The position numbers were made by a program, and so were the translations under genes. Below are positions 1,171-6,009 of a stretch of DNA of 42,305 nucleotides, piece after piece (the stretch's first letter is position 1; each line of letters begins with the position of its first letter). The notes below the pieces were generated by a model that worked only from the letters and a program-made list of their open reading frames with translations, ran no database searches and was not told the DNA's origin. Source of the DNA: Chloroflexota bacterium (GTDB taxonomy: Bacteria > Chloroflexota > Anaerolineae > Anaerolineales > E44-bin32); the NCBI GenBank assembly GCA_027298025.1, contig JAPUGV010000113.1, forward strand, positions 1-42,305, read 5' to 3'.

Positions 1171-1371
1171 CGTTTAGCGAAGTAGCCTACTTTATTTAGG
1201 TTATGGTGAAGCTTCTCCGTGGTGCCGGAGCGAGCTCGCTTGGCTGAATAGGTGCACTTCCGCTAGCGTTGGATTGAGCTAAGTGAGTGAGCGCAACCTC
1301 CCAGACCGCACAGGGTGGAATTCCTGTTCTTCATCGCTCTCATGTCCCAGCAGACTGGGACCAATGACGCC

Positions 1372-1412
1372 GCCTGACAACTCGCTGGAGCACTCTACGA
1401 GTGGAGCCGGAC
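1372..1412 (+). mobile_element. Half attC-like sequence, inverted copy of 3012-3052
   Basis: These 41 bases match the reverse complement of 3012-3052 at 40 of 41 positions. They begin GCCTGAC (the other copy has GCCTAAC) followed by AACTCGCTGGAGC, which resembles the R''-L'' arm of an integron attC site. No matching right half (GTTRRRY) follows within attC range, so the site is truncated or degenerate. With its partner it brackets the NHL lipoprotein gene as 41-bp inverted repeats. Confidence 0.5.
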
Positions 1413-1922
1413 CCGGCCACTGCCGGACCCATAAACTAGGCCCCGCTTCGGCGAGGTCTTTGCTATGGACGCGGCGGGGGGTGGTCTTCAAGGGCAGGAA
1501 AGGGCTAGGAGGGTCACAGTTATCTTCTGAAGAAATAACTATTGCGACAGACCTAGCCTTGTTTGCAGGATAGCACGACGACTGCTCAGGTTTGCTGAGT
1601 GCCGTTAGCTAGTTGATGGCCGATTCAAGTAAGTTGGACAACCTTCAGCGTAGGATTGTTCGGAACTGTCAGGTGACAGCGACCAATTTCGATTGCCTGA
1701 TCGCGCCGTCTGTTGAGCCCTTGGTGGTCCGCTCCAGCGGGAGGCTGTAGGAAAAGCCCGCCAGAAGATTAATAGGGGGCGAGACCGCGATTTCGCGCCT
1801 CTTGAAGTCCGACAAAGGCACATGTACGTTACCAGAATAGAAGATACCTTAAATGTGCCGCCGGCCGCCGTCGGTGTTGGGTGAATTTGTGGACAGCAGC
1901 CAAGTTGTGGACTTGGTGGGGG

Positions 1923-2951
1923 CTAAGGAATGAATAACAATCCATTCGGGGCCTGTAGCCGCCCACCATCTATGAACGTCTTTATAAACTCCCCTGTCTC
2001 GCCATCGTATTTGAGGACCTTGTTGTTTGCAGAACTTGCTACATAAAGATGTTCGTCTGGGCCGAATGCTACAGCCCAAGGTCCTTGGAGGACTTCTCCC
2101 TGGACAAACACGGCTAGAAACTCGCCCGTTTTGCCGTCAAACTTAAGAATCGTATTGGTGTCTTGACTCCCTACGTACAGATGGCCGTCAGGGCCAAACG
2201 TCATACCTGCTGGTCGGATAAGGGCCCGGTCCGAAGCGAACACCCCCATGCTCTCCCCTGTCTTGCCGTCGAACTTGTAGATCTCGTTCGTATTTGAATC
2301 CACGTAGAGGTGGCCATCGGGCCCGAAGGTCAAGCTCCATGGAAACTGTATCGAAACTCCTTTGAGAAGATCGCTTTGGACGAAGTCGTGGATGAACTTC
2401 CCAGTCTCTGCGTCGTACTGCAAGACTTTGTGCGTCCCAGCAGAGGCCACATACAGATAGCCGTCCCTAAAGACAATGGACTCAGGAGCCTGTAGATTGC
2501 CGTCAAGGGTGAACTTCCCCAGAAACTTCATCCCTTTCGATGGTTCATAATCTTTTGTATCGAATTGGAGAATCGCATTGTGGCCGTAGCTAGACAGATA
2601 GAACTTCCCGTCAGGACCAAGAGCTATCCCCACCGGCCATTGAATGTCACTGGTGGTGGCAAAAACCCCCAAATACTCTCCATCCATGCTGTAACCGAGT
2701 ACCTCTTCGGTAAGTGAGCTTGTAACAAGTAGAATTTTTCTGGGAATGTCAGCCTGGCCTCCAGCCTCTGGCGCAGAAGTGGGTAGTGGTTCGGCTGTGG
2801 GCTGTGAGACTGTCGCCTCTTCCTCAAGCTCCTCGGGCTCTGTCTCTGACGTTGCCGTACTGACAATTGGTCCCTCTGTCGCGGCGGTGCCGCCGCAGGC
2901 GCTCGCAGCTATGAGAATGACAAAGGGCAGGATGAGAATGCGCTTATTCAT
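1923..2951 (-). CDS. NHL-repeat beta-propeller lipoprotein
   Basis: 342 aa from ATG at 2951, preceded by AAGGAGG 6-7 nt upstream. Residues 1-19 form a lipoprotein signal (KRILILPFVILIAASAC). A Thr/Glu/Pro-rich linker follows (about 20-70), then at least five NHL/SMP-30-like blades built on the pattern GPDGHLYV....N.I.KFDGKTGE, each ending in a V F-type strand. Such propellers are extracellular binding or sensing modules. No catalytic residues can be assigned, so the ligand is unknown. The gene is flanked by the 41-bp inverted half-attC copies and lies next to the VOC cassette on the same strand, so it may have arrived as part of the cassette array. Confidence 0.85.
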   Translation of the reverse strand: MNKRILILPFVILIAASACGGTAATEGPIVSTATSETEPEELEEEATVSQPTAEPLPTSAPEAGGQADIPRKILLVTSSLTEEVLGYSMDGEYLGVFATTSDIQWPVGIALGPDGKFYLSSYGHNAILQFDTKDYEPSKGMKFLGKFTLDGNLQAPESIVFRDGYLYVASAGTHKVLQYDAETGKFIHDFVQSDLLKGVSIQFPWSLTFGPDGHLYVDSNTNEIYKFDGKTGESMGVFASDRALIRPAGMTFGPDGHLYVGSQDTNTILKFDGKTGEFLAVFVQGEVLQGPWAVAFGPDEHLYVASSANNKVLKYDGETGEFIKTFIDGGRLQAPNGLLFIP

Positions 2952-3011
2952 TAGTCCCTCCTTCTGCTCTCTCGGTCATCATCACACGAAGTCGCGGTGC
3001 GCCGAGGCTGC

Positions 3012-3052
3012 GTCCGGCTCCACTCGTAGAGTGCTCCAGCGAGTTGTTAGGC
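3012..3052 (-). mobile_element. Half attC site downstream of the VOC gene
   Basis: On the minus strand the sequence starts GCCTAACAACTCGCTGG, the usual beginning (R'' core then AA) of an attC recombination site, 8 bases after the VOC stop codon. The 11 bases ending in the core (GGCTGCCTAAC) are the exact complement of the start of the same cassette (GTTAGGCAGCC from 3474 on the minus strand), as expected for the two ends of one cassette. No GTTRRRY right half was found before the next gene, so the site looks truncated. Confidence 0.6.
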
Positions 3053-3060
3053 AGCCACCA

Positions 3061-3444
3061 CTAGACCTGATAAATTTGTAAGAGGTTTCCGCAGGTATCA
3101 TCAAATAAGGCGACCCTTGTTGATCCCATCTCAGTGGGTTCCATGCTGAATTCGATGCCAAGCCCCTTCAGTCTTTCATACTCCGCTTGAATATCGTCTA
3201 CGGCAAATGCAGCTGCGGCGATCCCTTGCTCGAATATCGACTTCTTGAATTTCCTGGCAGCGGAGTTCTCACTCGGCTCAAGGAGCAACTCAGTACCTTC
3301 GGGTTCTTCGGGTGATACAACTGTCAACCACTTGAACTGCCCAACCGGAAAGTCCTGCTTCTTCTCGAAGCCCAGGATATCCGTATAGAACTTCAATGCG
3401 GCCTCCTGATCATCCACAAAGACGTTTGTAAGTTTAATCTTCAT
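3061..3444 (-). CDS. VOC (glyoxalase/bleomycin-resistance) superfamily protein in an integron cassette
   Basis: 127 aa from ATG at 3444; GAGAGGA lies 5-6 nt upstream. A longer in-frame extension to 3516 is rejected because it would run through the attC site. The fold pattern is a vicinal-oxygen-chelate protein: beta-alpha-beta halves starting KLTNVFVDDQEAALKFYTDILGF and AAAAFAVDDIQAEYERLKGLG, ending in FDDTCGNLLQIYQV with a terminal metal-type region. VOC proteins include glyoxalases, dioxygenases and antibiotic-binding proteins; the substrate cannot be told here. Its boundaries (attC core at 3474 before the start and GCCTAAC at 3052 after the stop) make it a cargo gene of a mobile cassette. 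Confidence 0.85.
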   Translation of the reverse strand: MKIKLTNVFVDDQEAALKFYTDILGFEKKQDFPVGQFKWLTVVSPEEPEGTELLLEPSENSAARKFKKSIFEQGIAAAAFAVDDIQAEYERLKGLGIEFSMEPTEMGSTRVALFDDTCGNLLQIYQV

Positions 3445-3467
3445 AAATTCCTCTCGGCATGTTGGCT

Positions 3468-3595
3468 GCCTAACGCTGGCGTCAGTCGCCGGACGGGTGA
3501 TCTCACAAGGGAACAATAACCAGCACCGTCGTGCCGTGCGCGAAACTTCAAAAACCGCGCCGAATAGTCCGGTCGGACTGCACGCATTGTTAGGC
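3468..3595 (-). mobile_element. attC: Complete attC recombination site (128 bp)
   Basis: On the minus strand it starts GCCTAACAATGCG and ends CCAGCGTTAGGC: R'' (RYYYAAC) and R' (GTTRRRY) cores 128 bases apart. Inside, CAGTC and CCGGAC on the left arm pair with GACTG and GTCCGG on the right arm. The left arm carries one extra G (GCAGTC against CAGTC), like the extrahelical base that directs integrase. About 70-80 bases of variable terminal structure separate the arms. The orientation matches the genes on both sides (both minus), as required for gene cassettes, and the 128-bp length is within the known attC range. Confidence 0.85.
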
Positions 3596-3655
3596 GGCTA
3601 CCCGGCTGAAGACTATGGTTCATCCTGAAAAAATGAAACGGTTTCAAATGGCATA

Positions 3656-3723
3656 GCCTGCCGTCACGCGTCCGTCGGGCCGGTAGCCCTCTATGGGAAA
3701 AGACAGGCGCGTAGACGGCAGGC
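3656..3723. repeat. Long-stem inverted repeat after the SnoaL-like gene
   Basis: GCCTGCCGTC (3656-3665) pairs perfectly with GACGGCAGGC (3714-3723), with a 48-base spacer. It lies in the 160 bases between the SnoaL-like stop codon and the complete attC site, inside the same cassette. It may be a transcription end structure or a remnant of an older attC; a GCCTAAT at 3747-3753 on the minus strand resembles a mutated R'' core. Confidence 0.5.
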
Positions 3724-3755
3724 ACTAATTAGCCGGTGCGCGGTCAATTAGGCGT

Positions 3756-4205
3756 TTACCCCGGCGGTGGTGGCATCTCGACACCAAGTTGTTGCAGAAG
3801 CCCTGGTATACCACCGTCAGCCGGCACATCTGCACGCAGGCGAACGACTTTGCCACCCTCGACCGTAAGGTCAGCATGCTCGACTGGCAACTTGATAGCT
3901 TTGCCAGTGGCCGGGACAACTGGTAAGCCCAATGCCGACAAGTCTAGATCGCCGGTGTGTGTGCCGGTAATCTGATGCGTTGTTCGAGCTACATTGCCTG
4001 TCACCTGCACGTCACTCAGGTTGAATGACCAATCTGGAAAAGCCGCCGACATCTGACGCTGCAACCCAAGCCATTGCTCACCGCTAATGGGTTCGGGTAC
4101 GGGACCACTAAATGTGAAATCATCTGTCAGATAGCTCCCCATCGTGTCCATGTCCATCGATTCGATGGCTGTGAATAACGCTCTGGTAATTTCTTCTGCA
4201 TTCAT
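3756..4205 (-). CDS. SnoaL-like / NTF2-fold ester cyclase family protein in an integron cassette
   Basis: 149 aa from ATG at 4205 with AAGGAG about 7 nt upstream. The sequence has the SnoaL-like pattern: an N-terminal helix (NAEEITRALFTAIESMDMDT), then YLTDDFTFSGP, a Trp-containing helix with QRQMSAAFPDWSF, and strands ending in ITGTHTGDLDLSALGLPVVPATGK, which is typical of predicted polyketide/ester-cyclase-like proteins. Members bind small hydrophobic ligands in a cone-shaped pocket; many are of unknown function. A Pro-rich tail (VEMPPPPG) ends the protein. It sits between core sites at 4325-4331 and 3468-3595, so it is the cargo of a complete 857-bp cassette (3474-4330). Confidence 0.85.
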   Translation of the reverse strand: MNAEEITRALFTAIESMDMDTMGSYLTDDFTFSGPVPEPISGEQWLGLQRQMSAAFPDWSFNLSDVQVTGNVARTTHQITGTHTGDLDLSALGLPVVPATGKAIKLPVEHADLTVEGGKVVRLRADVPADGGIPGLLQQLGVEMPPPPG

Positions 4206-4324
4206 GGTTTGCTCCTTTTTGTAGCTGAATAGATAAATTTGGAAACAATCGGCGCGATCGGAAATAGGTTATGACTAAAAGCTCATAAAAGCCTCCTTAT
4301 CGACATCTAAACGGCGACACAGCC

Positions 4325-4331
4325 GCCTAAC
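4325..4331 (-). mobile_element. Orphan integron core site GTTAGGC at the array boundary
   Basis: On the minus strand GTTAGGCGGCT starts the SnoaL cassette; the end of that cassette (AGCCGCCTAAC at 3589-3599) is its exact 11-base complement, as expected for cassette termini. No RYYYAAC partner lies upstream, so this is not the right half of another attC. It is either an attI-like insertion point or a secondary GTT site where cassettes were inserted. Confidence 0.6.
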
Positions 4332-4531
4332 TATTATTGGGTGGAAATTACCCGCACAATCTCCAATCTAAAATACTATGCTGCTATTACCCGGATAATT
4401 TCACCTTCGATTCTTTCTCGTGTCACCGGCGGTTACCATGCGCCCCACCTCAGCCTCCTCCCCATAGAATACTCGTCTACCATCTTACCAAGACCCACTA
4501 GGCGGATTGCTTACTGCCCGACCATCAAACT

Positions 4532-4555
4532 AGAGCGCCTCTTCGGAGGTGCTCT
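4532..4555. terminator. UUCG-loop hairpin, possible terminator
   Basis: AGAGCGCCTC (4532-4541), loop TTCG, GAGGTGCTCT (4546-4555): a 10-bp stem with one G-T pair, capped by an exceptionally stable tetraloop. On the plus strand it is followed by GTCGTTTTG, a weak T-run. It may insulate the phosphofructokinase from upstream transcription. Confidence 0.45.
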
Positions 4556-4636
4556 GTCGTTTTGCCGAAGGCTCCCCAGCGCGGGTCAGAATGACAGATT
4601 TGTAAGTTGCAAATGTTTCCTTCGCAAAAGTGGTTT

Positions 4637-4667
4637 TTGGCGCGTTCTTGTAAGTATCGTTTAGAAT
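4637..4667 (+). promoter_or_regulatory. Possible promoter of the leader peptide / phosphofructokinase unit
   Basis: TTGGCG at 4637-4642 and TAGAAT at 4662-4667 resemble sigma-70 -35 and -10 boxes, but the 19-bp spacer is long. The predicted start of transcription would lie about 30 bases before the small open frame at 4705. Confidence 0.3.
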
Positions 4668-4704
4668 CCCCCCGCCAAAGAAGTCCAAGCTGGAGAGGAC
4701 CATC

Positions 4705-4767
4705 ATGGAGACGTGGGTCTTGAAGCAACCATACCCCTACTCGCCAAGGAGTAGCGAATCGCGATGA
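4705..4767 (+). CDS. Possible 20-aa leader peptide overlapping the phosphofructokinase start
   Basis: ATG at 4705 has GGAGAGG about 6 nt upstream, a better ribosome site than that of the following gene (AAGGAG 12 nt away). The frame encodes [20 protein letters not shown] and its TGA stop overlaps the next ATG (ATGA at 4764-4767). This is the geometry of translational coupling or of a leader peptide. The coding status is inferred only from the ribosome site and the overlap. Confidence 0.4.
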
Positions 4768-5912
4768 GAGTGGGAATACTGACCGGCGGCGGGGATGTAC
4801 CGGGCCTGAATGCCTCTATCAAGGCGGTTGTCAATCGCGTCGTGCAAGGAGAGCACGAAGTGGTAGGGATCCGACGGGGTTGGGCCGGACTTCTAAAATG
4901 GCCGGTCGGCGACCTGGTTGCGGAAGCGGAATACATCCTGCCGCTGGACCCGCAGGCGGTGCGCACCGTCGATCGCACCGGCGGCACTTTCCTCCATAGC
5001 TCGCGTACGAACCCAGCCAAGTTTCCAGTGGCGGAGGCGCCCGAATTCCTGCGAGAGGGTCGGCAGGATGACGGTTCGGCAGACTACACAGAGCATGTGC
5101 TGAAAGCGATCGAACATCTCAAGCTGGATGTCCTGATCCCGATTGGCGGTGACGACACGCTCTCCTACGCCCTACGCCTGCATGACGAAGGCATCCCGGT
5201 CATAGCCATACCCAAGACGATGGACAATGACGTATTCGGGACCGATTACTGCATCGGATTCTCAACCGCTGTCACCCGCAGTGTTCAGTTCATCCGGGAC
5301 CTGCGAACAAACGCCGCATCGCACGAACGTATTGCCGTAGTTGAGATGTTCGGCCGAAATAGTGGCGAAACTTCGCTGATCGCTGCCTATCTCTCAGGAG
5401 TGGACCGAGCCATCATTTCCGAGGTACCCTTCGATCCCCAGAAACTGGCCGATCTGCTGCTCGCCGACAAGATCGCCAATCCAAGCAACTATGCCATGAT
5501 GACCATTTCCGAGGGCGCGCAGATGGAAGGCGGCGAAGCCATCATGAGCGGCCGAGAGGACGCGTTCGGTCACAAGAAGCTTGGAGGGATCGGCGCCATA
5601 ACTGGGGACCTGCTACGTGAGCTGACCGGTCAAAAAATTATCTATCAACAACTTGCCTACTTGATGCGTTCGGGCATCCCCGATACGCTTGATTTAATGG
5701 TGGCCATGAATTTTGCGATCTTGGCCGCCGATCTAGCGCTCGAGGGAAAATCGGGCCGCATGGTGGCGCTTCGCCAGGGCACCTACACCGATGTGCCGCT
5801 CGCCGAGACGCGTGAGAGGGTCAAGCTTGTGGACGTCGAAGGGCTCTATGACGTGGAGCAATATCGCCCGAAGGTCCGACAGGTAGGCGGCATGCCGATG
5901 TTTCTGTCCTAG
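4764..5912 (+). CDS. pfp: 6-phosphofructokinase, pyrophosphate-dependent type
   Basis: 382 aa. It phosphorylates fructose 6-phosphate in glycolysis in the cytoplasm. Family motifs: phosphate-binding loop GGGDVPGLN (8-16), GGDDT (128-132) and PKTMDND (150-156), then the substrate residues MFGRNSGE. In ATP-dependent enzymes the two diagnostic positions are Gly (GGDGS, PGTIDND). Here they are Asp131 and Lys151, the combination known for PPi-dependent enzymes, which are reversible and can also serve gluconeogenesis. The ATG start matches the family N-terminus ([11 protein letters not shown]). The gene is monocistronic apart from the possible leader peptide. The phosphoryl donor is predicted from two residues only. 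Confidence 0.93.
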
Positions 5913-5925
5913 CGCTCGTGCGACT

Positions 5926-5958
5926 TGCCCGATGGATGCCCGATGGATGCCCGATGGG
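5926..5958. repeat. Three tandem 11-bp repeats
   Basis: TGCCCGATGGA at 5926-5936 and 5937-5947, then TGCCCGATGGG at 5948-5958. It lies just after the phosphofructokinase stop and before the bidirectional hairpin. It is a short variable-number candidate. Confidence 0.75.
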
Positions 5959-5964
5959 CAGAAT

Positions 5965-5993
5965 CAAAAAGGAGCGCGGAGAGCCGCGCTCCT
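5965..5993 (-). terminator. Rho-independent terminator of the first mutase gene
   Basis: On the minus strand AGGAGCGCGG, loop CTCT, CCGCGCTCCT (perfect 10-bp stem, 5970-5993) is followed by TTTTTGATTC. It lies 16 bases past the mutase stop. The convergent phosphofructokinase probably ends at the same stem. Confidence 0.85.
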
Positions 5994-6009
5994 CCTTCAA
6001 TGTAGATCT

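Follow-up and report, generated by a model that had tools for sequence, protein, structure and literature searches.

An integron cassette array headed by an attI-type site with no adjoining integrase gene in a Chloroflexota genome

Introduction

The window analysed here, a stretch of 42,305 nucleotides from a Chloroflexota genome, carries two small genes bounded by attC-like sites with no integrase gene beside them. A preliminary description, made from the window alone, had read the locus as a CALIN-like array in a lineage for which descriptions of integrons are uncommon. The window was compared with the rest of its genome (G000), with two congeners (G001 and G002) and with further relatives. 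The array was found to consist of an attI-type site, a SnoaL cassette, its attC, a VOC cassette and a broken attC, in that order (Table 1).

Table 1. Coordinates of the array and neighbouring features in the window
Feature	Position	Strand	Evidence or remarks
Second truncated attC left arm, opposite orientation	1369..1418	+	Same arm as at 3046–3052
Left half of truncated attC (R'', L'', part of loop)	2978..3052	-	Many attC sites of the genome have a matching left arm
Cassette 2 (VOC), attC 3'-truncated	3046..3473	-	Homology with the VOC cassette of genome G057
VOC/glyoxalase-superfamily gene, 127 aa	3061..3444	-	Pfam Glyoxalase 1.5e-23
Complete attC of cassette 1, 128 bp	3468..3595	-	Covariance model and scanner
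Cassette 1 (SnoaL-like), 857 bp	3474..4330	-	Begins TTAGGCGGCT, ends at G of R'; limits are attI crossover and attC R'
SnoaL-like gene, 149 aa	3756..4205	-	Pfam SnoaL_2 1.6e-12
Solo attI-type element heading the array	4331..4568 (~240 bp)	-	Independent attI profile and homologous copies
Direct repeat within attI element, candidate integrase-binding repeats	4343..4399	-	ATTATCCGGGTAATAGC at 4383–4399; ATTGTGCGGGTAATTTCC at 4343–4360
~100-bp repeat separating attI element and PFK	4569..4666	-	BLAST, 85 % identity

attC sites and gene cassettes

The complete attC was scored with a covariance model built from 32 attC sites adjoining the integrases of other integrons. The default pipeline accepted it in the window search at 28.7 bits (E 9.5e-5), and our own attC scanner gave it 14.1, where thresholds of 13–14 are expected to yield about 0.3 sites per 233 kb of shuffled sequence. 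Rejection of the site by a covariance model, the first refuting condition set out in the preliminary description, was thus not borne out. Its limits and its R'' (GCCTAAC) and R' (GTTAGGC) were as previously described, as were the inner arms CAGTC/GACTG and CCGGAC/GTCCGG, which pair in the computed fold, and the one extrahelical G, located in GCGT(G)CAGTC/GACTG-ACGC. It was the only complete attC of the array with R''/R' and L''/L' arms and an extrahelical base. An unfiltered covariance search passed over the same site, probably as a result of the model having been built on loop-trimmed 62-nt sequences and of hit length being limited in that mode; genome-wide attC counts from the model include only sites shorter than about 100 nt and are hence lower bounds. 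An Rfam scan of positions 2000–6000 gave no match. Elsewhere in the genome, the attC sites at L030 3462–3654 (contig C206) and L031 4894–5067 (C233) have an additional hairpin in both arms (ACTCTGCGAGTGGAGC in the left arm and CTGGCCTAGCCTGGCGGCTACGCCAGGACAGG in the right), in contrast to a simple version at L034 1219–1308.

Core sites had also been placed at 4325–4331 and 3046–3052, and both are present at these positions. The latter is just the left half of an attC, with L' and R' missing and homology to other attC left halves stopping near 2978, and the former abuts at 4331 an attI-type element that had been overlooked. A dispersed repeat of about 160 bp was observed at 980–1143, with copies at L035 3665–3821, L035 1–66 and L040 2804–2966.

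Both cassette genes lie on the attC strand and in both cassettes the first 11 bases are the exact complement of the last 11, as had been noted. At positions 8–11 this complementarity is a general trait of the cassettes of the genus (mean 2.85 of 4 within a cassette versus 1.74 permuted, p 1e-4, n=26).

Acquisition of both genes as integron cassettes was supported by the acceptance of the attC, by the distribution of the VOC gene and by its homologue in another genome. In addition, both genes are missing from the phosphofructokinase (PFK) locus of G001 and G002, which have no array there. Neither congener has the VOC protein, which was found in 7 of 60 relatives. Its homologue in G057, a member of another family, has 79 % amino acid identity and is itself a cassette, preceded by the core GATAATTGATAG/TTAGGC (the slash here and below marks the crossover) and followed by an attC on the same strand (E 2.7e-6, covariance model). 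DNA homology between the window and G057 starts exactly at 3474, the G of R' and point of crossover, and stops just past R'', as expected of movement as a cassette with its boundary at R'. This shows movement of the VOC gene as a cassette between families. Homologues of the SnoaL-like protein were few (49 % in G001, 45 % in G032 and 36 % in G016).

An attI-type site at the head of the array

The core at 4325–4364 reads TTGTGCGGGTAATTTCCACCCAATAATAG/TTAGGC, with the crossover between 4331 (G) and 4330 (T); the consensus of about 35 integrase-adjacent attI sites of other integrons is near TTATACGGAAAGTTTCCGTATAATAAATAG/TTRGGC. An independent attI profile, trained solely on such sites from other genomes, matched 4325–4364 in the window at E 0.0077 with cmsearch, ending exactly at core position 4325, and the next match had E 6.5. 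With nhmmer the site scored 14.1 bits, compared with 8.5 for the best of 100 shuffled windows. Searched against the whole genome, the profile gave five matches, including the attI of contig C200, the window, C105 and C139. The window site taken alone had E 0.45 at this scale; the weight of its assignment as an attI falls on its position and its copies. The direct repeats at 4343–4360 and 4383–4399 are conserved in the attI copies.

The place where intI would be is occupied by the PFK gene, and no intI was found within 2.5 kb of the site. The repeat of approximately 100 bp that separates the attI element from PFK also occurs in G001, both upstream of its PFK and next to an attI copy on G001:C28/C29. 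A sigma-70 promoter scan of 4200–4800 found none, and thus gave no evidence of a Pc promoter within this element. A terminator-like hairpin is present on the plus strand at 4531–4556, inside the element, and several of the copies have one too.

Integrase and attI copies across the genomes

The description of the array as lacking an integrase applies to the window; it does not extend to the genome, where contig C200 encodes an intact, functional-looking integron integrase (347 aa, no stops; 455 bits with TIGR02249, for which the cut-off is 265), upstream of which lies its own attI (...GGAATCAATAG/TTAGGC). Nor could the lineage be regarded as one in which integrons are rarely described, as IntI above the curated cut-off was found in 29 of 61 genomes, the window's included, and Chloroflexota are already among the listed integron-bearing phyla (PMC8618304).

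A genus attI profile (R1), the training set of which included many of the sites it counts, gave 10 sites in G000, 15 in G001 and none in G002. One of the sites in G000 adjoins the intact intI on C200, one (C269) adjoins a remnant and eight are without intI. Two sites in G001 are accompanied by intI, on C12 and on C11 and C25 (joined via a 127-base overlap), and the site on C43 may be that of C12 duplicated in assembly. Within 2.5 kb upstream of the intI-less or remnant sites no intI was found, except for remnants at C269 and, distant, at G001:C1; these are fragmented MAGs in which distances from attI sites to intI are not readable from the contigs.

The attI copies form families of block duplicates aligned exactly up to G/TT. 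The flank of approximately 240 bp ending at G/TT in the window is repeated elsewhere in G000 and G001 and was not found in the other 33 genomes searched. Its copies at five other loci have 73–87 % identity over 190–247 nt, among them 83 % over 247 nt (G001:C51), 87 % over 190 nt (G000:C151) and 74 % over 234 nt (G000:C272). A second, integrase-linked type of about 140 nt includes copies with 98.5 % identity over 137 nt (G001:C93), 87 % over 141 nt (C47) and 79 % over 140 nt (G000:C139), shares a left edge that falls within the intI-attI spacer at about -141, and begins with a GTTACG-like sequence in most copies. At the level of sequence, these comparisons show the window attI to be one of a family of block-duplicated, intI-less attI copies dispersed along the chromosome in a Chloroflexota genus.

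An attC was found downstream on the right strand at seven of the eight testable intI-less or remnant sites of G000 (the window, C207, C105, C272, C233, C100 and C269; not C139). A genome-wide search with the genus profile yielded six further sites in G001 outside the training set, four of which have downstream attC arms (C85, two on C47, and C39). No attC was found downstream of the copies on G001 C61 (three), C51 and C43; those on C61 (33477, 36015 and 36715) are tandem, with genes between them. A match of the R2 profile at G000:C271 was left out, having no attC downstream. The copy on G001:C29 (L218 4747) has the core AATAATAG/GGGGCG in place of /TTAGGC and looks dead. Several contigs stop at or near an attI-cassette junction (G000:C151 at its end, 10873; G001:C93 at its start; G001:C43 at its end), as if the assembly branched there, and the population may contain alternative first cassettes.

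Origin of the array

The structure is best explained, in our judgement with high probability, as part of a chromosomal integron with dispersed, intI-less attI platforms, presumably served in trans by the C200 integrase. By the standard route, IntI would fold and cut the bottom strand of attC and insert the circular cassette at G/TT of attI. For the window array the enzyme would be supplied from C200, the attI blocks would have been copied to other loci, and the array at 4331 may still be active. Counting against this reading, the window-type attI, though homologous to the attI of C200, is no close copy of it, so that recognition of both by the C200 integrase is a presumption. One integrase may thus serve many small gene-capture sites.

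It was considered whether the cassettes had instead been inserted, as at attG sites, into an ordinary genomic GTT resembling attI, such that the upstream consensus reflects target preference and not copying. One accepted way in which CALINs arise is off-target insertion by an IntI encoded elsewhere (PMC8618304), attG sites are described (PMC12901181), and the heads on C100 and C233 have only a short core in common with the intI-linked attI. The window flank, however, is homologous to its five other loci over the whole 190–247 nt and stops at the crossover, whereas target preference would account for a common core but not for homology over hundreds of bases; this weakens the explanation, which we regard as very unlikely, and a random GTT target was rejected on the same homology. 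Also unlikely is a complete integron that decayed at the window site, with intI deleted and attI and cassettes left behind. Remnants of intI do occur at G000:C269 and next to the attI of G026:C188, yet there is no trace of one within 2.5 kb of the window site, the neighbouring PFK is syntenic with that of G001, and repeated independent deletions would not yield the common left edge near -141 of the integrase-linked copies. Chance inverted repeats near two ordinary genes would involve no integron feature at all, and have nothing in their favour beyond the need for checking; they were refuted by the attC model (E 9.5e-5), the attI profile, the intact IntI and the homologous VOC cassette with the same boundary, and their probability is negligible.

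The dispersed platforms served in trans may be part of a broader arrangement, which we put forward tentatively and at somewhat less than even probability: a distributed integron in which attI is a mobile or duplicated module at many loci, each gathering cassettes via one or two integrases in trans, with the module perhaps moved by IntI. The module would measure about 141 nt in the integrase-linked type, with a GTT-like core start in most copies, and 190–247 nt in the window type. The GTT-like left edge of the former would permit IntI-driven movement of attI; no such edge was seen in the window-type blocks, and such movement accordingly remains an idea. Outside the genus, G011:C83 has two attI-type sites that face opposite ways, with an attC-like site downstream of one of them, and in G026:C188 an attI lies beside a broken intI; both attI copying and intI decay thus occur.

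Should small arrays often be headed by intI-less attI copies, part of the so-called CALINs would be a served multi-site capture system. Integrase-less arrays would then have an origin that can be tested, and cassettes a route to expression at several chromosomal places.

Comparison with known integron systems

We class the array as a variant of the chromosomal integron, and as neither a CALIN nor an attG insertion. Like a sedentary chromosomal integron (intI, attI and attC array), it has an attI-type head with a G/TT core, single-gene attC-bounded cassettes in one direction and, in its genome, an intact IntI with its own attI. It was filed as a variant and not as a complete integron because no intI stands beside its attI. 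Descriptions of integrons place a single attI next to intI, and attI is treated as one per integron (PMC3607928, PMC9024848), whereas there are about ten attI-type sites here, eight of them without adjoining intI. Phrase searches of the literature, with most subscription papers outside their reach, found no report of dispersed, multiple or orphan attI.

With CALINs (at least two attC, no neighbouring intI) the array shares attC cassettes and the absence of intI nearby. The proposed assignment to this class was not upheld, as an attI-type block heads the array, the integrase is elsewhere in the genome, and the single complete attC, accompanied by a truncated one, is below the reporting threshold of two attC in IntegronFinder 2 (PMC9024848). 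Standard software ignores attI outside class 1; IntegronFinder, with attI detection limited to that class (PMC9024848), would not reveal the difference between a CALIN and an attI-headed array.

The attG insertions of Loot et al. 2024, as cited in PMC12901181, likewise place cassettes at chromosomal positions off the integron by G/TT recombination. Their target is a divergent site, in contrast to the duplicated attI-type block common to several loci that flanks the array here. The Delta-attI-type cassettes (PMC12901181) similarly have attI sequence away from the integrase acting as a recombination site, but in those cassettes attI replaces attC at the cassette 3' end in mobile integrons, whereas here it forms the array head at several chromosomal loci.
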